From the NCBI GenBank assembly GCA_026995935.1, contig JALWNK010000058.1, positions 1 to 64,000 of the forward strand: DNA of 64,000 nt, written 5' to 3'. This DNA is from Deltaproteobacteria bacterium. Lineage in GTDB: Bacteria > Desulfobacterota > Dissulfuribacteria > Dissulfuribacterales > QOAL01. Position numbers and translations under genes: made by a program. Below are positions 51,398 to 62,674 of the stretch, piece after piece. The notes under the pieces were generated by a model, which saw only the letters and a program-made list of their open reading frames with translations, searched no databases and was not told the origin of the DNA. How positions within the stretch are numbered: position 1 is the stretch's first letter; every line of letters begins with the position of its first letter.

Positions 51398-54300
51398 ATG
51401 AAAAGGCTGTTAATAAGAGGGGCAAGTCAAAACAACCTGAAAGATATCGACCTTGAGATAGAGGAGGGGACAATCTGCGCAGTCTGTGGCCCTTCAGGGT
51501 CTGGAAAGTCCTCCCTCGTCTTTGATACCATCTATTCAGAGTCGCAAAGACGCTTCATAGAGACCTTTTCTCCCTATGCAAGGCAGTTTCTCGAAAGGCT
51601 TTCAGGCGCAAGGGCAAAGGCCATCAAGAACCTTCCTGCATCCATTGGCATAGGCAGGTCAAATCCTGTAAAAAATTCCCGCTCAACCGTTGCCACCCTT
51701 TCTGAAATAAGCTTTTCGGCAAGGATGCTCTTTTTCAAAAAGGCTGATCCCTACTGCACAAGATGCCAGGTGCCTCTTAGAGCAAGTAGCTGGCAGGATG
51801 TCTATTCGTTTTTGAAAAAAGGGGCAGAATCTGGCCTAAGGCGCGGATATATCTGCATAAGGAGCGATGCAGGCAGGCTTTTTGATCTTCAAAAGGAGGG
51901 CTACAGGCGAATTCTTTTAAAAGGCAGGGTCATAGACCTTTCAGAAGACGAAGTGTCTTCCATGCCTGAATACCAAGGCAGCAGCGGTTTTCATATCATT
52001 GTTGAAAGGCTTGCCCTCAATTCCTTTTCTGAAGGACGGATCAAGGAGGCAGTGGAGACCGCCTTTGGCCTTGAAGACACCATCTATGTATTTCTTGAAG
52101 AAAAAGGTGAAGGGGAGAAGACCTGCGAATTTCATAAAAGGCCTCTCTGCTCAAAGTGCACAAGGGAAAAGGCACCACCAAGCATGCTTCTTTTTTCCTT
52201 CAACTCACCCGAAGGGGCCTGCCCAGAGTGTAGCGGATTTGGAAGGGTAATGGACATAGACTGGGACCTTGTCATACCAGATAAAACCAAATCCCTTTCC
52301 GAAGGGGCCATAAGGCCCCTTGAAAACTGGGTTGATGAAAAAGAATTTCTGTTTTCATGCTGCAAGGAGTGGGGAGTAGATGTAAAAAGGCCGTGGAAAG
52401 AGCTTTCAAGTCAGGAAAGGGATGCCATTCTCTTCGGAAAAGACGACTGGTACGGCATAAAAGAGATTTTCAACTACCTCGAATCAAAACGGTATAAGGC
52501 CCATATCAGGATACTTCTTTCAAGGTACAGGGCCTACAACCAGTGCCCATCCTGCAAGGGCACCCGTTTTAACAATGAGGCCCTTTCCTACAGGCTTGGC
52601 GGGCTTGATATCGGAGGCCTTTACAGGCTCAGCGTTGAAAGGGCACTTGATTGGTGTAAGGGGTTTGGGGAAGGTCTTAGCCTGGATCGGGCTTCATCAA
52701 GCCTCCTTGAGGACCTTACAAGGAGGCTCCTTCTCATAAAAGAGGCGGGTCTTGGCTACCTTACCCTGGACAGACAGTCACGCACCCTTTCTGGTGGTGA
52801 GCTGTCCCGGCTTTGTCTTGCAAAGGGCGTCTCCGTCAGCCTTTCAGAGACCCTTTACTGCCTTGATGAACCCTCATCTGGACTTCATCCCCAGGACGTT
52901 CATGGCGTGGCAAAGGTCTTAAAGGGCCTTAAGGAGGCGGGAAACACCGTTCTTATGACGGAAAACGACCCAGTTATGGCATCATCTGCAGATAGGGTCA
53001 TTCGCATGGGGCCTGGTTCCGGAAAGGATGGAGGAAGGATTGTCGGCGAGGACCTTCCATTAGATCCTAGTCTTGAAACTGTCCTGGAAGATCAAAAGGG
53101 CAGGCAGGAGAAGGAGCCGGCCCGCAGCCTTCGTTTCCTTGAGACAAGGCGTGCAAGCCAGAATAATCTAAGGTCCATAACGTGTCGTATTCCCATTGGT
53201 ATGCTTACCTGCGTCTGCGGGGTGTCTGGTTCTGGAAAATCAACCCTTGTGGAGGAGTGCCTTTACAGGGGCCTTTTGAGAAAGGCGGGAAAGGCAGCCC
53301 CCACTCCAGGAAAATTTGAAGACATTAGTCTTCCCGAGCCCTTCGATCAGGTGGTCTTTGTGGACCAGGAACCCCCTTCAAGGACCCCAAGGGGATGCCC
53401 TGGAACCTATCTCAAGATACTTGATCCCATAAGAAAGCTCTTTGCAAAGACTAAGGAGGCGGAAGCCCTTGGGCTTGGCTCTGGCTTCTTCTCATTAAAT
53501 GTTGACGGAGGCAGGTGCCCCCACTGCAAGGGACAGGGCCATGAGATGCTGGACATGCAGTTTCTTCCAGATGTAATGGTTAAGTGTCCAGAGTGTGGAG
53601 GAAAGAGGTTTTCCAAAAGGGCCCTGGAGATAGAATTTAAGGGTAGAAACATAAGCGACCTGCTCCAGATGACCCTTTTTGAGGTGGCAGATTTCTTTAA
53701 AGGGCAAAAGGCAGTTCTAAAAGGTATTATGCCAGCCCTTGATCTTGGCCTTGGCCACCTTCTCCTGGGCCAGCCCCTTAATACACTTTCTGCAGGGGAT
53801 TCCCAGAGGCTAAAGATTGCAAGGTATCTTGGCACCCCAAAGGGCAGGAACCTTTTCATACTCGATGAGCCAACCAGGGGGCTTTACCATACGGAGGTCA
53901 AAGGCCTCATCCGAGAGCTCAAGAGGCTTTGCCAGCAAGGAAATACGGTCATTGTGGTGGAGCATGACCTTTCAACCATCCTTTTGAGCGACTGGGTGAT
54001 AGAGCTTGGACCTGGAGGCGGTGAAAGAGGCGGAAGGCTCCTTTATGAAGGAAGGCCAGAAGGTATCCTTGAAAAGGATACGTCCACAGCCAGGGCCGTT
54101 AGGGCCATCAAGAAGAAAGGGGGCAATTTAGGAGGGCAAAAGCACTTTAAAAGGGAAAAGGGGGAGGAAGGTCCAGAAAACGTTATTGAAATAAGTGGGG
54201 CAAGGCACCACAATCTCAAGGACCTAAGTGTCAAAATTCCAAGAAACAGGCTCGTTGTGGTAACCGGCGTTTCAGGCTCTGGTAAGTCCTCCCTGGCCTT

Positions 54301-56641
54301 TGACCTTATCTATAAAGAGGCCCAGAGGCGCTATCTTGAAAGCCTTCCATCCTACATGAAGCAGTTTGTAAGGCTCTATGAAAGGCCAGACGTGGATGCC
54401 ATAAGGGGCCTTAGCCCCTCGGTTGCCATTGAGCAGCGCGCATGCAAGGGCGGAGCCATGTCCACTGTTGCAACCCTTTCTGAAACTGCCCACTACATGA
54501 GGCTTCTATATGCACACTGTTCACGCCCTGTTTGTCCTGAGTGTAAAGGAAAGATGGTCCAGGTGAGTATCCAAGAAGTTGAAAGGGCCGTTTCCAGGCT
54601 CCTAGAAAAGACACACATTTACGTTGGCGCACCTCGTATTCGTCACAGAAAGGGTTGGCACCAGCAGGAGATTGAGCGCGGTTTCGTGAAAGGTGCAGAT
54701 CTGGTGCTGGTGGACGAAAGGATAGTGGAAAGGGGGGAGACAGTCAGGCTTTCACGCTACAAGGAACACAGCATATCCTGGCTGTGGGGGCCCTTTAAAA
54801 AGGAACAAGAAGGTCTAAAGGGCCTTTCCTCTATTCTTGAGACGGCCCTAAAGGCGGGAGGCGGCACCATTTTCTGCCTGCTTCCGGATAAAGGCCGCAA
54901 GTGGTTCAGCACAAGCCATTTTTGCCCAAGGTGCAAGATCTCTGTTGAAGAGCCTGATCCCCTTCTTTTTTCCTTCCATACCGAGACTGGAAGGTGCCCT
55001 GAATGCCTCGGAAAGGGAGAAAGGGAAAACGGCGCTACCTGTGCGTTGTGCAAGGGCACAAGGCTTTCTAAAAGGGCCCTTTACTGGCAGATAGACGGAG
55101 TTGATATTGCCTCCTTTTTTAGATTCGAGATAGATGAGGCCATCTCTCTTATAAAAAGCTGGCAGAAGAAAAGGGGGCTTTTCGGAAAAAGGAGCAAGCT
55201 TTTTAAGATGCTTACGGGACATGTGCTAAAAAGGCTTGAGCTTATGTCTGAACTTGGCCTTGGCTACCTTGGCCTTGATAGATCAGGGGCAAGCCTTTCA
55301 GGAGGAGAGGCCCAGAGGATCGCCCTTTCTTCCCAGAGTGCATCGAATCTTACCGGCATAACAATTGTCCTTGATGAGCCCACCATTGGCCTTCATCCCT
55401 CTGACAACAGCAGGCTTGTTGCGGCCCTTAGGGATATTGCCAGAAAGGGTAACAGCGTCATCGTTGTTGAACATGACGAGGAGACAATCCTTGCAGCTGA
55501 TTTTGTGGTGGATCTTGGCCCTGGAGGCGGAAGAGAAGGGGGTGAGGTGGTCTACTGTGGAGGTGTTAGGGGCCTTCTGAAACATCCGTCTTCGCGTACT
55601 GCAAAGGGTCTAAGAAACAGAAAGATAACTGTAGAAAAGAGCAAAAGGCTTATGCCTGAGACCCGATTTCTGAGGCTTTCAGGGGCAAAAAGACATAATC
55701 TTTTGTCTGTGAATGTACGGATTCCCATTGGTGCCGTAACTGTGGTTACAGGGGTTTCCGGCTCAGGAAAGACCAGCCTTGAAGAGGCCCTCTACCTGGC
55801 GCTTACCGGAGATACTTCGTGCGCTCAAAGCCTTGAGGGAAGTGAAGAATTAAAGGGGGTCCACCGCATAGACCACAGCCCCATAGGCAGGACCCCGAGA
55901 TCGTGTCCTGCAACCTTCATTGGTATATTTTCCCAGATCCGTCACCTTTTTTCCCGCACCCCTGCGGCACGGATACGTGGCTTTGGACCCTCGCACTTTT
56001 CCTTTAACACAAGGGAAGGCGCATGTCCTCACTGCGGTGGTCAGGGCCAGTTGAGGCAAAGGCTTGGCATACTTCCTGACGTTTATATCACCTGCCCAAG
56101 CTGTCAGGGCAAGAGATTTAAAAGCGATGTCCTTTCAGTAACCTGGAAGTCTCGGGACATTAGCCAAGTGCTGGATATGACAGTCTCAGAGGCGCTTGAG
56201 TTTTTCAGGGCCATTCCCCAGATAAGAAAGGGCCTCAAGGTTCTGGACGACCTTGGACTCGGATACCTGCGCCTTGGTCAGCCAAGCCCAACCTTTTCAG
56301 GGGGAGAGGCCCAGAGACTAAAGATTGCAAAGGAGCTTTCAAGGGTACAGAATCAGGCCAGGCTTTATCTTCTTGACGAGCCCAGTGTGGGGCTTCACAT
56401 GGATGATGTAAGGCGGCTTTCAGATTGCCTTTCAAGGCTTTCTGACCTTGGAAACACCGTGCTCATGGTGGAGCACAACCAGGCCCTTATTGCAGGATCA
56501 GACTGGATAATCGACCTTGGGCCAGGTGGTGGAAAATATGGAGGAAAGGTGATTTTTGAAGGACCTTTATACGCCTTTTTGAGGTCTGACACCCCCTCAA
56601 AGACGCTTAAGTGGCTGAAGCCGGTTGTTGATGTGGCGTAA
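51398..56641 (+). CDS. uvrA: Double-length excinuclease subunit UvrA (tandem UvrA-UvrA fusion)
   Basis: A 1747-aa DNA damage recognition ATPase of nucleotide excision repair, where UvrA is normally about 940 aa. It contains two complete UvrA copies joined by a linker near residues 905-930. Four Walker A motifs are visible: [10 protein letters not shown] (31), [10 protein letters not shown] (about 608), [10 protein letters not shown] (about 957) and [10 protein letters not shown] (about 1452). Signature motifs are [27 protein letters not shown] and FSGGEAQRL; the second is degenerate. Zinc-finger pairs are [19 protein letters not shown] and [19 protein letters not shown]. It would act as an intramolecular dimer. 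No ribosome site precedes ATG 51398. uvrB and uvrC are not in the window. Confidence 0.95.
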
Positions 56642-56721: not shown

Positions 56722-57216
56722 ATGGCTGAGAAAAAATCACGGATCCTTAAAAAGGAATGGAAGAGTTTTCTTAAGGATTTCAACAGAATGAACCAGTACA
56801 GGACCGCCGTGGTCCAGATTGGAGAGGACTACATAGTTGGAGAACCCGGCATGCCCCTTCTTGGCATTGACTACGATGAAAGGGGGAGAAGGGTAGAGAT
56901 ATTTTTGGGAACAACCGATCCAGACAATCTTGTTCACCTGGCCCATGCAGTGGAAGTGCCAAGGGCCATCTACCTCATAAGGGACGAAGAGGCGGTAAAT
57001 CCCGTGGTTGGCCTTCAGATACAGGGCGCCCCAGGAACTGGTATGACGAGGATTCGCTTTATAGATGCTGCCTGTGAGGAAGGCCGCCAGAAATGGGTTG
57101 CAGCAGTGGCACATACGTTGTATGAACGCAGGGGCATGGAGCCTGGAGCAGACCAGGAGGACTGGTTCAAGGCCGAAGAGATTATAGAGGCGGTGTGCGA
57201 AAACTACAGGAAATAG
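56722..57216 (+). CDS. DUF5335/DUF2934-like protein
   Basis: A 164-aa soluble protein. The N-terminal 110 residues resemble DUF5335 (TAVVQIGEDYIVGEPGMPLL, then GIDYDERGRRVEIFLGT). The C-terminal 45 residues (AAVAHTLYERRGMEPGADQE then DWFKAEEII) match the DUF2934 pattern. I chose ATG 56722 (GGAGG nine bases upstream) over the upstream ATG 56662. It lies between uvrA and a YcaO gene on the same strand. It has no signal peptide. The family calls are from memory of the patterns; the function is unknown. Confidence 0.7.
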   Translation: MAEKKSRILKKEWKSFLKDFNRMNQYRTAVVQIGEDYIVGEPGMPLLGIDYDERGRRVEIFLGTTDPDNLVHLAHAVEVPRAIYLIRDEEAVNPVVGLQIQGAPGTGMTRIRFIDAACEEGRQKWVAAVAHTLYERRGMEPGADQEDWFKAEEIIEAVCENYRK

Positions 57217-57251: not shown

Positions 57252-59006
57252 ATGAGGTTAGGCGATTCTTTCAAAGAATCGGGTCTTTCCTTTGATAAGG
57301 TGAGGACCCCGGAGGAGACCCTTGAGTGGGCTATGGAAAGGTTTTCATCCCTTGGAAGGCCTGTACTCGAGGAAGTAAAGCGCGTAGACAAGGGAAGGCT
57401 TGGTATCCCGGTCTTTGTTAGCAAATACCACCCTGAGGCAAGTGTCGTAACTGGCACAAAAAAGCAGATGGGCAAGGGGGTTACCGAGGCCCAGGCCAAG
57501 GCAAGCGCTGTCATGGAGATTGCCGAAAGGTACAGTCTCTTCAGGTTTGTTGAGGACAGTGACTTTTATATTGCCCCTTTCTCTGGGGTGGATGGCAACA
57601 GGTTTTCGTTTGAACACCTTCTTAAGGCGGTCCATTTCAAGGGGGACCTTACCCAAGAAGAAAAGGGTTTTCTCAAAGGCTTTCCCCAGGGCTGGATAAG
57701 GGGGCTTCGTCTTCCAGAGGATTCAGAGTGTTTTGTACCCTTTTCATGGATGTGGCCCATCTTCGAATACAACGGGTCTGCTGCGGGAAACAGCCTTGAG
57801 GAGGCGTCAGTCCAGGCAATCTGCGAGGTGGTTGAGCGCCACGTCTGCTCGGTTATAAGCTACAATTTCATAAAGACTCCTACCATTGATCTTGATTCCG
57901 TAGAGGACGATCAGCTCAAGAAACTGATTGAGAGATTCAGATCAAGGGGCATCAACCTGGTTCTAAAGGATTTTTCCCTTGGCCTTGGCATTCCAACGGT
58001 GGGGGCCCTGGCCTGGGATCCGTCCACATATCCGGAAAGAAGCGAGATAGTCTACACTGCCGGAACATCCACAAGCCCGGAAAGGGCAGCGGTCAGGGCC
58101 ATTACCGAGGTTGCGCAGCTGGCTGGGGATTTTGATACAGAGGGAAGATATCTTGAAAGTGGCCTTCCAAAGTTTGCCACCCTTGAAGAGGCAGGCTATG
58201 TGCTCAATTCGGATGAGGTGAGAAGGCTAAGTGAACTTCCCGACTGCTCGTCGCGCAACTTCAGGCAGGAAGTGGAGCTTCTGGTCAGGGCCCTAGAAAG
58301 TGCAGGGCTTCCTGTCTATCTGGCAGACGTTACGGAAAGGGAACTTGGAATCCCTGTGGTTTATGCCATGATTCCAGGCAGTCACTTCCGTGACCGCACC
58401 CTCAACCTTGATCTTGCCTTTCACATGGCTCGCATTGCTGCAACAGGAGGCATCCTGGATCTCTTTGAGGCAATAGATGTTTTGGAAGGGCTTGGAAACG
58501 TATACCCTGACAGATTTGATATTTCCTTTTACATGGGCCACCTGCTTGAATCCACAGGGGATTTAGAGGGGGCAGTAGAAAGATACCAGCAGGCACTTTC
58601 CCTTTCGCCGCCTGAAACAGAACTTCCAAGCCTCTACTGTAACCTTGGCAACTGTTTTCGCCAGCTTGGAAGGCTCGATGATGCTGTGGAACAGCTTGAG
58701 AAGGCAAAAAAACTCAATCCGGGCCTTAAGGAGATACACAACATTCTTGGTACCTGCCTTTATCAGATGGGAAGGTATGCAGAGGCCATCGAGTGCTTCG
58801 AACAGGCAATCTCCATTGATCCAGGTTCTGCCATAGATTATGCCAACATAGGGAGTAACCTCAGAAGGCTTGGGATAATCCCTGCTGCCATTAAGTGGTA
58901 CAGGATGGCACTTGAACTCGATCCAACAATTGACTGGGCAAGGCAGCACCTTTTTGAGCTTGAATCCCACTTACAAGGCGTGGATGAATCTATTGTGAAA
59001 AAATGA
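57252..59006 (+). CDS. YcaO-domain protein with C-terminal TPR repeats
   Basis: A 584-aa cytosolic protein. YcaO enzymes use ATP to activate amide backbones (azoline or thioamide formation) or assist sulfur chemistry. The YcaO domain (about 1-400) has the three ATP-binding helices as MEIAER (88-93), CEVVER (191-196) and TEVAQ (285-289), where the last is a Q variant. Residues about 425-575 are four TPR repeats (GNCFRQLGRLDDAVEQLEKA; GTCLYQMGRYAEAIECFEQA). It lacks a RiPP-type Pro-rich C-terminus and no precursor peptide is visible beside it. It is directly upstream of dsrC and near miaB, so a sulfur-transfer role is plausible (inference). The stop codon is the first half of an operator-like palindrome. 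Confidence 0.85.
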   Translation: MRLGDSFKESGLSFDKVRTPEETLEWAMERFSSLGRPVLEEVKRVDKGRLGIPVFVSKYHPEASVVTGTKKQMGKGVTEAQAKASAVMEIAERYSLFRFVEDSDFYIAPFSGVDGNRFSFEHLLKAVHFKGDLTQEEKGFLKGFPQGWIRGLRLPEDSECFVPFSWMWPIFEYNGSAAGNSLEEASVQAICEVVERHVCSVISYNFIKTPTIDLDSVEDDQLKKLIERFRSRGINLVLKDFSLGLGIPTVGALAWDPSTYPERSEIVYTAGTSTSPERAAVRAITEVAQLAGDFDTEGRYLESGLPKFATLEEAGYVLNSDEVRRLSELPDCSSRNFRQEVELLVRALESAGLPVYLADVTERELGIPVVYAMIPGSHFRDRTLNLDLAFHMARIAATGGILDLFEAIDVLEGLGNVYPDRFDISFYMGHLLESTGDLEGAVERYQQALSLSPPETELPSLYCNLGNCFRQLGRLDDAVEQLEKAKKLNPGLKEIHNILGTCLYQMGRYAEAIECFEQAISIDPGSAIDYANIGSNLRRLGIIPAAIKWYRMALELDPTIDWARQHLFELESHLQGVDESIVKK

Positions 59007-59017
59007 ATAGCTATTCA
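59004..59017. promoter_or_regulatory. Operator-like palindrome TGAAT-N4-ATTCA (site 4)
   Basis: TGAATAGCTATTCA, a 14-base fully perfect palindrome overlapping the stop codon of the YcaO gene. It is about 178 bases upstream of dsrC, in the gap between the two genes. Confidence 0.5.
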
Positions 59018-59112
59018 AAAAAGCGTTGCTGCCCATTTCACATGCCTGTTAAGCTATTATAAATATTAATTTTTTCTCTTTTTCTCAATCTTGAAAAAAT
59101 TTTAACGAGCCT

Positions 59113-59141
59113 TGACAAAGATATTTGGTTATAGTAATAAA
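59113..59141 (+). promoter_or_regulatory. Candidate promoter of dsrC
   Basis: TTGACA at 59113-59118 with a 17-base spacer to TAATAA (59136-59141) in an AT-rich stretch. The -35 is perfect, the -10 is weak. It would start the dsrC transcript about 50 bases before its ATG. Confidence 0.5.
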
Positions 59142-59194
59142 CGGTCTCGATATGCCATAATGGACATAAGAGAATAATCCAAAAGGAGGGCAAT

Positions 59195-59515
59195 ATGGCA
59201 ACTGTAGAGTACAAAGGCAAGACTTATGAAGTCGACGAAGACGGTTTCCTTACAAAGGGAATGGAAGAATGGGATGAAAACTGGGTAGAATACGTCATGG
59301 AGCAGGAAGGCATCAGCGAGCTCACCGAAGACCACAAGAAGGTCATTGAGGTGCTTCAGGACTACTTCAAGAAGAACGGTATCGCTCCCATGGTCAGGAT
59401 TCTTTCCAAGACAACAGGATATCCCCTCAAGAAAATCTACGAGCTCTTCCCATCAGGACCTGGTAAGGGAGCCTGTAAGATGGCTGGACTGCCAAAGCCA
59501 ACAGGCTGCGTCTAG
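59195..59515 (+). CDS. dsrC: DsrC, sulfur-carrier protein of dissimilatory sulfite reduction (DsrC/TusE family)
   Basis: A 106-aa cytosolic protein that carries sulfite-derived sulfur as a trisulfide for DsrAB/DsrMKJOP. It has the family motifs DEDGFLTKGMEEWDENWVEY and FKKNGIAPMVRILSKTTGYP. The mobile C-terminal arm GACKMAGLPKPTGCV carries both redox cysteines, Cys94 and Cys105. The two Cys mark a true DsrC rather than TusE-only paralogues. AAAGGAGGG precedes ATG 59195. It is monocistronic with its own promoter and terminator, far from dsrAB, which is common. It shows that the organism uses a sulfite-reductase-based pathway (sulfate/sulfite reduction or sulfur disproportionation). Confidence 0.97.
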   Translation: MATVEYKGKTYEVDEDGFLTKGMEEWDENWVEYVMEQEGISELTEDHKKVIEVLQDYFKKNGIAPMVRILSKTTGYPLKKIYELFPSGPGKGACKMAGLPKPTGCV

Positions 59516-59539
59516 TAGCCCCTAAAATTTGTTATTATC

Positions 59540-59575
59540 AAGGCCCTGTATCTTTGATGTTCAGGGCCTTTTTTA
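59540..59575 (+). terminator. Rho-independent terminator of dsrC
   Basis: AAGGCCCTG (59540-59548) pairs with CAGGGCCTT (59562-59570) over nine bases, followed by six or more T. It lies 24 bases past the dsrC stop. Confidence 0.92.
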
Positions 59576-59722
59576 TTTTCTTTTTGTTACTTCCTGTTAT
59601 ATTAGCACCAAAATTCTTTCAGCAATCCATTATGACTATTTGTTCTGGACCTGTAAAGGGCCTTGCATCTGAGATACCTGGATTTGCAATTGTTAGTTTA
59701 TTCAAAAAATGGAGGCAATGAA

Positions 59723-61306
59723 TTGCGCACCGCATTATCCGGTCACGCCCTGAGTATATTTTTCATTGTTCTGATAGTGGTGGCGTGTCCGGGAAATCTC
59801 CCAGCCAGTCAACAACAAATTGAAGGGCTTGTAGAGGATTACAGGCCCGTTTTGGCCACTGCAAAGCAGGAAAACAAGGGTCAGTTCCTGCTGGATAAGG
59901 GTGCGCAATCTGGCATAAAGCCGGGAGACCTGTTTTCTTTAGTAGGCAAGGGAAGGCCAATTTACCTTCCTGGAACAAAAAGGATGCTTGGCTATGAAGA
60001 CAAGGTGGTGGGCAAGTGCAGGATTGTAAGAGTCCAGAAGGATTCATCCTTATGTGAAGTGTATTCTGTTTTTGGAAATCTTTCGCCAAATTTGAAGGCC
60101 CTCAGGTTTAGCAATATGAGGGCGGCCTTTTTCCTGGACGGGCGGCTGGTGTCCCCGGTCTTTTCCACCTATTCGCTTGAGAAGCTCCTGCCCAATCTAG
60201 AATGGATAAAACCTGCAAGAGGCCCCCTTCCTGTTCCAACTAAGAGCTCCATGGAGGCCTTTGGCATAGACCTGGTGTTTGAGCTTAAGGACGATACCCT
60301 CCATGTGTATGGGCCTGACATGAAAGAAATTTCCTCGTACGAGATGGTTCCTGTATCTGGGCCGCCCCTGCACGAGTCGAAAGAGACCGGGCATGCCATC
60401 ACTGTACCAGGATTGGAACAGGCGCCCAAAACATTTGATTTTAAAGAGGCCGTCCCTGTTGGAACACTTTCCGAGAAGGTTCTCCAGGTTGCAGTAACGG
60501 ATCTTGACGGAGACGGAAAACAGGAAATCATCTACCTCCTGGCAAACGGGCTTGGAGTTGCACCATACAGGCGTGAAGGCCGGGCAATTTTCTATCGCTT
60601 CGGCGACTTTGAATGCCCATGCAGTTTTTCCTGTTCCAGAGGCTGGCTGGTTCTGAACCTGACCATAAAAGGAGCAGGTCTCACCTCCAAGTTATTCAGT
60701 TACAAAAAGGGGAGGCTTAATCTCGTGCAGGACGAGATTAACCTATGGCTTTCCTTTGTTCAGGCAGCATGCGGGCAGAAAACCCCTGTGCTTATGGGGC
60801 AGGAGTTTGAAAAGGAACGATTCAGGGGAGAGCGCATTTTCAGGCTGAATCCCACAGATCAGGGTTTGGAGTACGTTGAACAGGCAGATTTCCCCAGTGA
60901 TTTTAACATTGACAGTGTAGCTTCTACAGAGGTCAATGGTACCTGTGTCATTTTGTATGTAAGCTTTGACGGGTTCTTTAAGGTCTTTGGAAATGGTTCC
61001 CATATATGGACCTCTCTGTTTCCTGTTGTTCCGGAAAGGCCTTGCTGTGGTCCTCAAAAAGCGGATTTTCTTAAGATTGGAAAGGGCCTTGTTTTTAATG
61101 GGGCTATTCCCGGAGAAAGGGGAAGGGGCGTAAGCGGTCTTTACTACCTGTCTTTATCAGATGGTTACCGTTTTTTCAGGGCGGATTCCCACCTCAAGGG
61201 CTCCATATGTGGCGTGTCAATGACGTCAAAGTCCGTTATAATAGGAGTCACTGAAGAAACCCAAAAAGGTTGGAGAACCTATCTCTACAAGTTTCCCATT
61301 CCTTGA
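59723..61306 (+). CDS. Exported protein with FG-GAP-like calcium-binding repeat, uncharacterised
   Basis: A 527-aa secreted protein. The N-terminus MRTALSGHALSIFFIVLIVV ends near ACPGNLPASQ as a signal sequence. The middle has VTDLDGDGKQEIIYLLANGL, a DxDxDGxxD-type loop of FG-GAP/VCBS repeats. The rest is unassigned beta-rich sequence with eight or so cysteines (FECPCSFSC; ERPCCG). I chose TTG 59723, seven bases after GGAGG; the longer frame from 59663 has no site. It is 12 bases upstream of miaB, so may be co-transcribed. The function is unknown. Confidence 0.7.
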   Translation: MRTALSGHALSIFFIVLIVVACPGNLPASQQQIEGLVEDYRPVLATAKQENKGQFLLDKGAQSGIKPGDLFSLVGKGRPIYLPGTKRMLGYEDKVVGKCRIVRVQKDSSLCEVYSVFGNLSPNLKALRFSNMRAAFFLDGRLVSPVFSTYSLEKLLPNLEWIKPARGPLPVPTKSSMEAFGIDLVFELKDDTLHVYGPDMKEISSYEMVPVSGPPLHESKETGHAITVPGLEQAPKTFDFKEAVPVGTLSEKVLQVAVTDLDGDGKQEIIYLLANGLGVAPYRREGRAIFYRFGDFECPCSFSCSRGWLVLNLTIKGAGLTSKLFSYKKGRLNLVQDEINLWLSFVQAACGQKTPVLMGQEFEKERFRGERIFRLNPTDQGLEYVEQADFPSDFNIDSVASTEVNGTCVILYVSFDGFFKVFGNGSHIWTSLFPVVPERPCCGPQKADFLKIGKGLVFNGAIPGERGRGVSGLYYLSLSDGYRFFRADSHLKGSICGVSMTSKSVIIGVTEETQKGWRTYLYKFPIP

Positions 61307-61318
61307 GGACCTATCACC

Positions 61319-62674
61319 ATGAAAAGTCTTGTTAGAGAAAAAGACGAAATATCAGAAAAGTCTGCGCCCAGAAGGCTCCATATTGTAACATTTGGGTGCC
61401 AGATGAACGAATACGACTCTCAGCGAATGGCCCAAATGCTTATGGGTCGCTATTGTCTGACCCCCTTTCCAGAAGAGGCAGACCTTATAATTGTAAACAC
61501 TTGCTCAATCAGGGAGAAGGCAGAACACAAGCTCTACAGTCTTTTAGGAAGACTGAAAGGCCTTAAAAAGCGCAACCCGGCCCTAAAGATTGGAGTGGCA
61601 GGATGCGTTGCCCAGCAGCTTGGTGAAATGCTTTTTGTAAAGGCCCCCTATGTGGATTTTGTCATGGGGCCCCAGGGGCTCTACGATATCGTCAATATTG
61701 TGAAAGGGCTTGATGAAGGCGGAGAAAGGCTAGTAAGAGTTGACCTTGATAATGATTTTGATATCCCACATGTAGAGGCTCCCCTTCCCAAAAAGGGGGA
61801 GGTTCGGGCGTTTGTAACCATAATGCAGGGTTGCGACAATTTCTGCACATACTGCATTGTTCCCTTTGTAAGGGGCAGGGAGATAAGCAGGCCCTCAGAA
61901 GATATTTTGAGGGAAATAGGCTCATTGGTTGATCAGGGGGTGAGGGATATCACCCTGCTTGGTCAAAACGTTAACTCCTACGGGAAAAAATCTCCCAAAG
62001 GCGTTGATTTTCCTGGCCTTCTCAAGGAGATAGACAGTGCCTTTCCGGACATTAGGCTTCGTTTCACCACCAGTCATCCAAAGGATCTTTCAAACGAGCT
62101 TATAGAGTGCTTTGGAAGGCTTGAAACCCTCTGCGAGCACCTGCACCTTCCAGTCCAGTCCGGCTCTGATAAGATATTAAAACGCATGAACAGGCGTTAC
62201 AGCAGGGCCCAGTATCTCCAGAAGGTGGAAAAACTCAGAAGTGTGTGCCCCGATATCACCATAACCACTGATCTCATTGTGGGCTTCCCGGGAGAAACCG
62301 AGGAGGATTTCCGCCAGACCATGTCCCTTTTGGAAGAGGTGCGTTTTGATCAGGCCTTTGCCTTCAAGTACTCTGAAAGGCCAGGCACTGCTGCAGCCAG
62401 GTTTCAGGAAAAGGTGCCAGAAGATGTGAAGTCCAGGCGTCTTACCGAGCTTCTCAAGATACAGAATCGGATAGGGCTTGAACAGTACCGCCGTTTTGAG
62501 AACAGGATCTGCGAGGTGCTGGTTGAGTCTTTTAGAGATTCAGGGATTACCGCAAGAACCCGGGGAAACCATGTCGTAAACATGGAAGGGGCAGGCGGCC
62601 TTGTTGGACAGCTCATAAATGTTTACATTGAAAGGGCATGTCACCATTCCTTAATTGGAAGAATTGTACACTAA
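61319..62674 (+). CDS. miaB: tRNA-2-methylthio-N6-isopentenyladenosine synthase
   Basis: Radical SAM methylthiotransferase that adds a methylthio group to i6A37 of tRNA. The 451-aa protein has the N-terminal cluster cysteines C27 (FGCQMN), C62 (NTCSIREKAEHK) and C96 (VAGCVAQQ). The radical SAM triad is C172/C176/C179 in MQGCDNFCTYCIVPF, and the TRAM domain is at the C-terminus. The length and FGCQMN motif fit MiaB rather than RimO or MtaB. It lies 12 bases after the exported-protein gene and 15 bases before the bifunctional-nuclease gene. Confidence 0.95.
   Translation: MKSLVREKDEISEKSAPRRLHIVTFGCQMNEYDSQRMAQMLMGRYCLTPFPEEADLIIVNTCSIREKAEHKLYSLLGRLKGLKKRNPALKIGVAGCVAQQLGEMLFVKAPYVDFVMGPQGLYDIVNIVKGLDEGGERLVRVDLDNDFDIPHVEAPLPKKGEVRAFVTIMQGCDNFCTYCIVPFVRGREISRPSEDILREIGSLVDQGVRDITLLGQNVNSYGKKSPKGVDFPGLLKEIDSAFPDIRLRFTTSHPKDLSNELIECFGRLETLCEHLHLPVQSGSDKILKRMNRRYSRAQYLQKVEKLRSVCPDITITTDLIVGFPGETEEDFRQTMSLLEEVRFDQAFAFKYSERPGTAAARFQEKVPEDVKSRRLTELLKIQNRIGLEQYRRFENRICEVLVESFRDSGITARTRGNHVVNMEGAGGLVGQLINVYIERACHHSLIGRIVH

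Follow-up and report, generated by a model that had tools for sequence, protein, structure and literature searches.

A YcaO-TPR protein linked to DsrC in sulfate-reducing bacteria and a candidate backbone modification of the DsrC arm

Escherichia coli YcaO, which carries a 150-residue tetratricopeptide repeat (TPR) domain, recognises folded uL16, a loop of which has been modelled in its active site. The thioamide of uL16 is made in vitro with ATP, Mg and sulfide and without TfuA (PMC13063428). Some methanogens likewise form thioglycine without TfuA, and deletion of ycaO-tfuA is tolerated (PMC5589413). DVU2210 of Desulfovibrio vulgaris is a YcaO-TPR protein whose deletion, or mutation of its ATP motif, confers resistance to molybdate when sat is deleted (PMC7774982). 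It is recurrently mutated during syntrophic evolution, with genes of sulfate reduction lost or mutated alongside (PMC8319347). Here we describe a gene for a YcaO-TPR protein of 584 amino acids (57252..59006, + strand) that stands directly before dsrC (59195..59515, + strand; 106 amino acids) in a 64,000-nucleotide stretch of DNA from a member of the Desulfobacterota, referred to below as the window. A preliminary description of the window had named YcaO-TPR, DsrC and MiaB as its open reading frames (ORFs) of interest, and matches to Pfam and NCBIfam confirm all three assignments.

Dissimilatory sulfate reduction, a process of major global importance, turns on DsrC, for which crystal structures in complex with its reductase exist. 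In a search of 5.39 million papers, none named both YcaO and DsrC.

Linkage of YcaO-TPR and DsrC

A profile of the family's YcaO domain, built from 30 members, was searched in 178 and then in 394 genomes, all from the window's phylum and each at least 90% complete. Among the 394 genomes, 158 have both YcaO-TPR and DsrC, 3 have YcaO-TPR only, 58 have DsrC only and 175 have neither. These counts support a specific link between YcaO-TPR and DsrC, as the preliminary description had proposed: DsrC is present in 158 of the 161 genomes with YcaO-TPR. That YcaO-TPR might be equally common without dsrC is not what is found, since it occurs in 3/178 genomes without DsrC versus 158/216 with it (Fisher p ~1e-55, a value that ignores descent). 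The three genomes with YcaO-TPR and no DsrC (G123, G306 and G423) are all drafts, and two of the 161 (G304 and G410) were counted from gene fragments at contig ends. Two of the 58 genomes with DsrC only, G084 and G166, have weaker YcaO paralogues. The window's own 2.59 Mb genome contains one YcaO and one DsrC in total.

Three separate lineages keep the two genes side by side, 72-400 bp apart overall, and both gene orders occur; a lack of conserved adjacency would have spoken against the link. In the taxonomic order to which the window belongs, 40 genomes have the two genes; in about 31 of them ycaO immediately precedes dsrC, usually by 72-237 bp, and the outer flanks of the pair vary between families. 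Family f26 has the reverse arrangement, dsrC then ycaO, 116-145 bp apart in 9/9 genomes examined. Six genomes of family f50 have ycaO then dsrC, 161-400 bp apart. The frequency of adjacency in the window's order, together with its occurrence in two other lineages, is more than chance would give. That YcaO-TPR and DsrC are functionally linked is well supported and, in our judgement, probable.

Other YcaO genes and other neighbours occur at related loci. Paralogous YcaO genes are also found beside a dsrC in G136 and G152. This second YcaO (485-516 amino acids, with few TPRs and about 36% identity; L139:14443-16721 and L140:2560-4739) is part of a same-strand run with dsrC. The run in G136 comprises dsrC, a helix-hairpin-helix protein and the second YcaO; that in G152 combines the second YcaO with a DsrC variant having the arm TTSERAICKIAGLPKPTGCI. 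In family f28 (L131:2505-4877), YcaO-TPR and a variant dsrC are separated by the gene for a B12-binding radical SAM protein that also has an FKBP-like domain. In many Desulfobacterales-type loci the gene immediately before YcaO-TPR, in the same orientation, encodes LarE (TIGR00268, an ATP-dependent sacrificial sulfur transferase) (L069, L075, L076, L078, L082, L084, L096, L097, L100, L103 and L104), and LarE accompanies YcaO-TPR in further loci (L150, L151, L285, L287 and L288). It is possible that LarE serves as a sulfur source for YcaO-TPR.

The DsrC arm and a candidate thioamide

The DsrC of the window matches PF04358 (E 6.1e-35) and TIGR03342 (110 bits, cut-off 53.5). Its C-terminal end, KGACKMAGLPKPTGCV, keeps both cysteines, CysB (Cys94, codon 59474..59476, + strand) and CysA (Cys105), as in canonical two-cysteine DsrC. 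Identity as TusE was rejected, with a PRK11508 score of 58 bits against a cut-off of 191.

DsrC sequences were aligned from 116 genomes, of which 72 have YcaO-TPR, 42 lack it and 2 have a paralogue only. Position 90, four residues before CysB (codon 59462..59464, + strand, in the window), is Gly in 72/72 genomes with YcaO-TPR, where the arm reads GPGKGACKM. It is Ala (GPA) in 37/42 genomes without the enzyme and in 2/2 paralogue-only genomes. In the 37 Ala-type proteins, Met is never present two residues after CysB. Among 48 columns that are invariant or nearly so in the YcaO-TPR genomes, Gly90 is the single residue that none of the 37 Ala-type genomes and neither paralogue-only genome has. 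The DsrC in the DsrABC structures 2v4j, 2xsj, 3or1 and 3or2 has Gly at this site. Two archaeal DsrC proteins of solved structure, 1sau and 1ji8 (which we take to be those of Archaeoglobus fulgidus and Pyrobaculum aerophilum), have Ala.

The same association is found in a local reversal. Within one order, G117, G142 and G425 have YcaO-TPR and Gly90, and G084 (a single contig) and G166 have Ala90 and no YcaO-TPR; the bodies of the latter two DsrC proteins group with the Gly type despite their Ala90. Reductive DsrC splits into two clades on a published tree, where the split is given no explanation (PMC10504309), and the distribution of YcaO-TPR appears to follow one side of it. The Gly90 association suggests a chemical modification of DsrC that has gone unrecognised, for which Gly90 is the candidate site or immediate neighbour.

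The catalytic domain of the YcaO-TPR protein (residues 73-376; 57468..58379, + strand) matches PF02624 with 233 bits (cut-off 25.7; E 5.6e-69). The ATP/Mg motif Sx7Ex3Qx3ExxER, beginning at S176, is intact (residues 176-196; 57777..57839, + strand), and E184, Q188, E192, E195 and R196 are invariant in an alignment of 30 family members. A TPR domain follows at residues ~425-570 (58524..58961, + strand), matched by Pfam TPR families, and its helix pairs are visible in an AlphaFold model of the protein (pLDDT 91). The best fold by Z score is that of Methanocaldococcus jannaschii YcaO in complex with a peptide (6peu, Z 37.3). A whole-chain Foldseek comparison ranks full-length E. coli YcaO first (4q86/4q85, ~600 columns), with a TM score of 0.48 at which domain orientation differs or is uncertain, so that the likeness is one of layout only.

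A further lead comes from proteomics of D. vulgaris. In 2011 the DsrC peptide LKEVYELFPSGPGK, given as LK*EVYELFPSGPGK, was reported as trimethylated and oxidised in three pull-downs (PMC3125180). This peptide stops exactly at the Gly-Lys of the candidate site and lacks any Met, Cys or Trp that could be oxidised. A thioamide (+15.977) is liable to be called an oxidation (+15.995) (PMC13063428). The peptide is ambiguous and is a lead for a thioamide, not proof of one. The same study reported Lys trimethylation of DsrC and of ApsA/ApsB (PMC3125180), which has apparently been little followed up in the literature.

From the observed co-occurrence, adjacency, Gly90 association and domain layout we infer the modification itself. 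The best single explanation, to which we assign a probability of about 0.5, is that YcaO-TPR modifies DsrC and that the product would be a thioamide at or beside Gly90, formed with ATP and sulfide. If the enzyme behaves as E. coli YcaO does towards uL16, folded DsrC would dock on its TPR region and on the outside of the catalytic domain. The flexible C-terminal arm (GP-Gly90-KGAC94K-M96) would then enter the active site; entry at this point is proposed because Gly90 is the sole arm position that tracks the enzyme both in the deep clade split and in the local reversal. Phosphorylation of an amide oxygen is known YcaO chemistry, and with its motif intact the enzyme could use ATP in this way on the backbone oxygen at or beside Gly90. 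Sulfide would displace the phosphorylated oxygen to leave a thioamide next to CysB.

Sulfate reducers make sulfide in the cytoplasm. The sulfide route is favoured because of this supply, because the closest relatives form McrA thioglycine and because TfuA (PF07812) was found in 0/178 genomes of the phylum, the window's included, in a search whose Methanosarcina acetivorans control was positive. Free sulfide is the simplest origin of the sulfur, with LarE or DsrC-bound sulfur as alternatives. A stiffer, sulfur-bearing backbone might fix the shape of the arm for trisulfide formation at DsrAB and transfer to DsrMK. By analogy with McrA thioglycine, the modification would be conserved yet non-essential. 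A tentative extension is that DsrC in most sulfate reducers of the phylum, D. vulgaris included, has a backbone thioamide made by YcaO-TPR at Gly89/90 beside CysB.

If this is true, DsrC would become the third known protein target of YcaO thioamidation, and a substrate would be assigned to a YcaO family known from a molybdate phenotype only. The modification would help to explain the division of DsrC into two reductive clades and, lying beside CysB, would alter models of trisulfide chemistry.

Weighing the alternatives

Several observations weigh against a thioamide on DsrC. YcaO-TPR and dsrC are far apart in many lineages, and beyond the window's order (in Desulfobacterales and Syntrophobacteraceae) most named YcaO-TPR loci have no dsrC close by. 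The genes are also apart in genus g85 of family f50, which is Desulfovibrio-like and has a DsrC resembling that of D. vulgaris. No named YcaO model gives the family a score that reaches its equivalog cut-off. The deposited structures 2v4j, 2xsj, 3or1 and 3or2 record plain Gly in DsrC; to our knowledge, a thioamide has been reported in none of them, and we know of no report of any backbone modification of DsrC. Only two Gly/Ala changes occur on the DsrC tree, both concordant (sign test p 0.5), and because there are only two, a test for correlated evolution of Gly90 and YcaO-TPR has no power; the phylogenetic independence of the signal is thin. Single deletion of DVU2210 leaves sulfate respiration normal (PMC7774982). 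The '+16' on the DsrC peptide could be Lys carboxymethylation, with the same nominal total, or ordinary oxidation, 11-22 ppm apart, and the 2011 work had iodoacetic acid among its search settings and a Mascot tolerance of 100 ppm (PMC3125180). Finally, Gly90 occurs without YcaO-TPR in five genomes, four of family f43 and one of f80. YcaO-TPR with Ala90 in the main DsrC was not found among the 72 YcaO-TPR genomes, and this asymmetry is expected of an enzyme that requires Gly.

The likeliest of the alternatives, though we consider it improbable, is that YcaO-TPR belongs to the sulfate-respiration set but acts on another protein (for example a DsrAB, DsrMK or Qmo subunit, or uL16), with Gly90 an inherited marker of a DsrC clade. 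Both Gly90 and YcaO-TPR track the deep, published split of DsrC (PMC10504309), and the column scan covered DsrC alone. Such a role for uL16 would have a precedent in E. coli YcaO, which has the same layout (PMC13063428), but a universal protein cannot account for the restriction of the enzyme to DsrC genomes. Nor does another substrate readily accommodate the fact that three lineages, with two gene orders among them, place the gene specifically beside dsrC, or the Ala of G084 and G166, which are enzyme-less among enzyme-bearing relatives.

The preliminary description raised a possible sulfur relay. In such a relay YcaO would draw on DsrC, whose persulfide or trisulfide would be the donor with which YcaO-TPR thioamidates a third protein. 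How sulfur reaches a YcaO without TfuA is an open question (PMC13063428), and LarE upstream of YcaO-TPR in 14/80 named loci places sulfur-handling genes nearby. A relay is thus possible, but we regard it as improbable, and the evidence favours DsrC as substrate: Gly90 would not be expected if DsrC acted purely as a donor, sulfate reducers have abundant free sulfide and Ala-type DsrC has the same two cysteines. YcaO enzymes form azolines and amidines as well as thioamides. Lys91 and Lys95 flank the site, so that enzyme and substrate could be as proposed and the chemistry different, for example attack of a lysine on the activated amide to give an amidine, or some other backbone change. The nearest profile and fold are those of thioamide formers, and the reported +16 matches replacement of O by S rather than loss of water (-18); we rate different chemistry as slightly more improbable still. 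Least probable of all is that YcaO-TPR spends ATP on some unrelated reaction, such as the one on molybdate suggested for DVU2210, and that its linkage to DsrC is historical. The resistance of the sat-deleted ATP-motif mutant fits this view (PMC7774982), but molybdate adenylation does not predict linkage to DsrC, and expression of DVU2210 did not make E. coli molybdate sensitive (PMC7774982).

Neighbouring genes and relation to described systems

In the window, the ORFs follow one another on the + strand in the order DUF2934/DUF5335-like gene, YcaO-TPR, DsrC, a 547-amino-acid ORF, MiaB and a BFN-domain protein. The DUF2934/DUF5335-like gene (56722..57216, with its start codon picked by eye) is directly upstream of ycaO and may be an accessory. 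It is a conserved neighbour of ycaO in the window's order, including at loci with dsrC elsewhere (L037, L038 and L115). The 547-amino-acid ORF (59663..61306) matches no Pfam or NCBIfam family, and its homologues keep their position after dsrC throughout the order. MiaB (61319..62674; TIGR01574, 506 bits) had been counted as part of a possible sulfur-relay locus, a proposal that is not borne out: only within the family of the window does it flank the two genes, and it was set aside as a component of the system. Syntrophobacteraceae-type loci have MiaB about six genes upstream and no dsrC. Elsewhere in the window, positions 51398-56641 hold a UvrA-like ORF of 1747 amino acids, about twice the usual length, apparently a head-to-tail fusion of two UvrA copies. 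No known RNA family was detected in the window, and a promoter scan, which bears on whether ycaO and dsrC are co-transcribed, gave no clear excess over shuffled sequences.

Outside this locus, plasmid records yielded distant YcaO domains only. Four genomes of family f2 (G019, G029, G035 and G041) and G049, all 2.0-2.6 Mb in size, each have between four and six matches to YcaO, of several kinds, which is unusual for the phylum. A cluster for ribosomally synthesised and post-translationally modified peptides was ruled out for the window: profile support is lacking (TIGR03604, the azoline-forming YcaO of such clusters, gives 112 bits, under its cut-off of 219), and the neighbours are DUF2934 and dsrC, with no recognisable precursor cluster.

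Relative to the DsrC/TusE sulfur carriers, the DsrC of the window is canonical, with both cysteines. The YcaO of E. coli (NF040716; 4q84-4q86) had been linked to RimO methylthiolation in the preliminary description; this RimO/uS12 link is superseded by the finding that the enzyme thioamidates uL16 (PMC13063428). It shares with YcaO-TPR the arrangement of a YcaO domain followed by a C-terminal TPR domain (seen by Pfam and in the model) and the lack of TfuA. However, identity is only ~17%, and NF040716 gives 52 bits, from a partial match to the profile, against a cut-off of 700. YcaO-TPR follows DsrC in its distribution, in contrast to uL16, a universal protein. The E. coli enzyme has a pI of 4.4 and a basic substrate; the corresponding pI of YcaO-TPR is 4.93, and DsrC is acidic (pI 5.05).

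DVU2210 also combines a YcaO-like domain with TPRs. Its published ATP motif, SAGNTEEESILQGSCELVER, fits the pattern of genus g85, and the DsrC of D. vulgaris bears the GPGKGACKM arm. It differs in being known from its molybdate phenotype only, with no substrate proposed, and it is connected to the present family by motif and taxonomy, not by full sequence.

The McrA-thioamidating YcaO proteins (TIGR03266; 6pe3, 6peu and 6ci7) differ from YcaO-TPR in several respects. YcaO-TPR scores 139 bits against an equivalog cut-off of 365, and the aligned McrA-type chains have no TPR. Their substrate is a methanogen protein, whereas YcaO-TPR genomes are those of DsrC-bearing bacteria, and their TfuA partner, usual though not universal, was not found for YcaO-TPR. 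Nevertheless, TIGR03266 is the top NCBIfam match for YcaO-TPR members of three lineages, each below cut-off, and these enzymes also provide the best fold by Z (37). The residue they modify is a glycine within a protein central to catabolism; TfuA is dispensable for some members, and the modification is non-essential (PMC5589413). If DsrC is modified as proposed, sulfate reduction would parallel methanogenesis, whose key enzyme also has a thioglycine.

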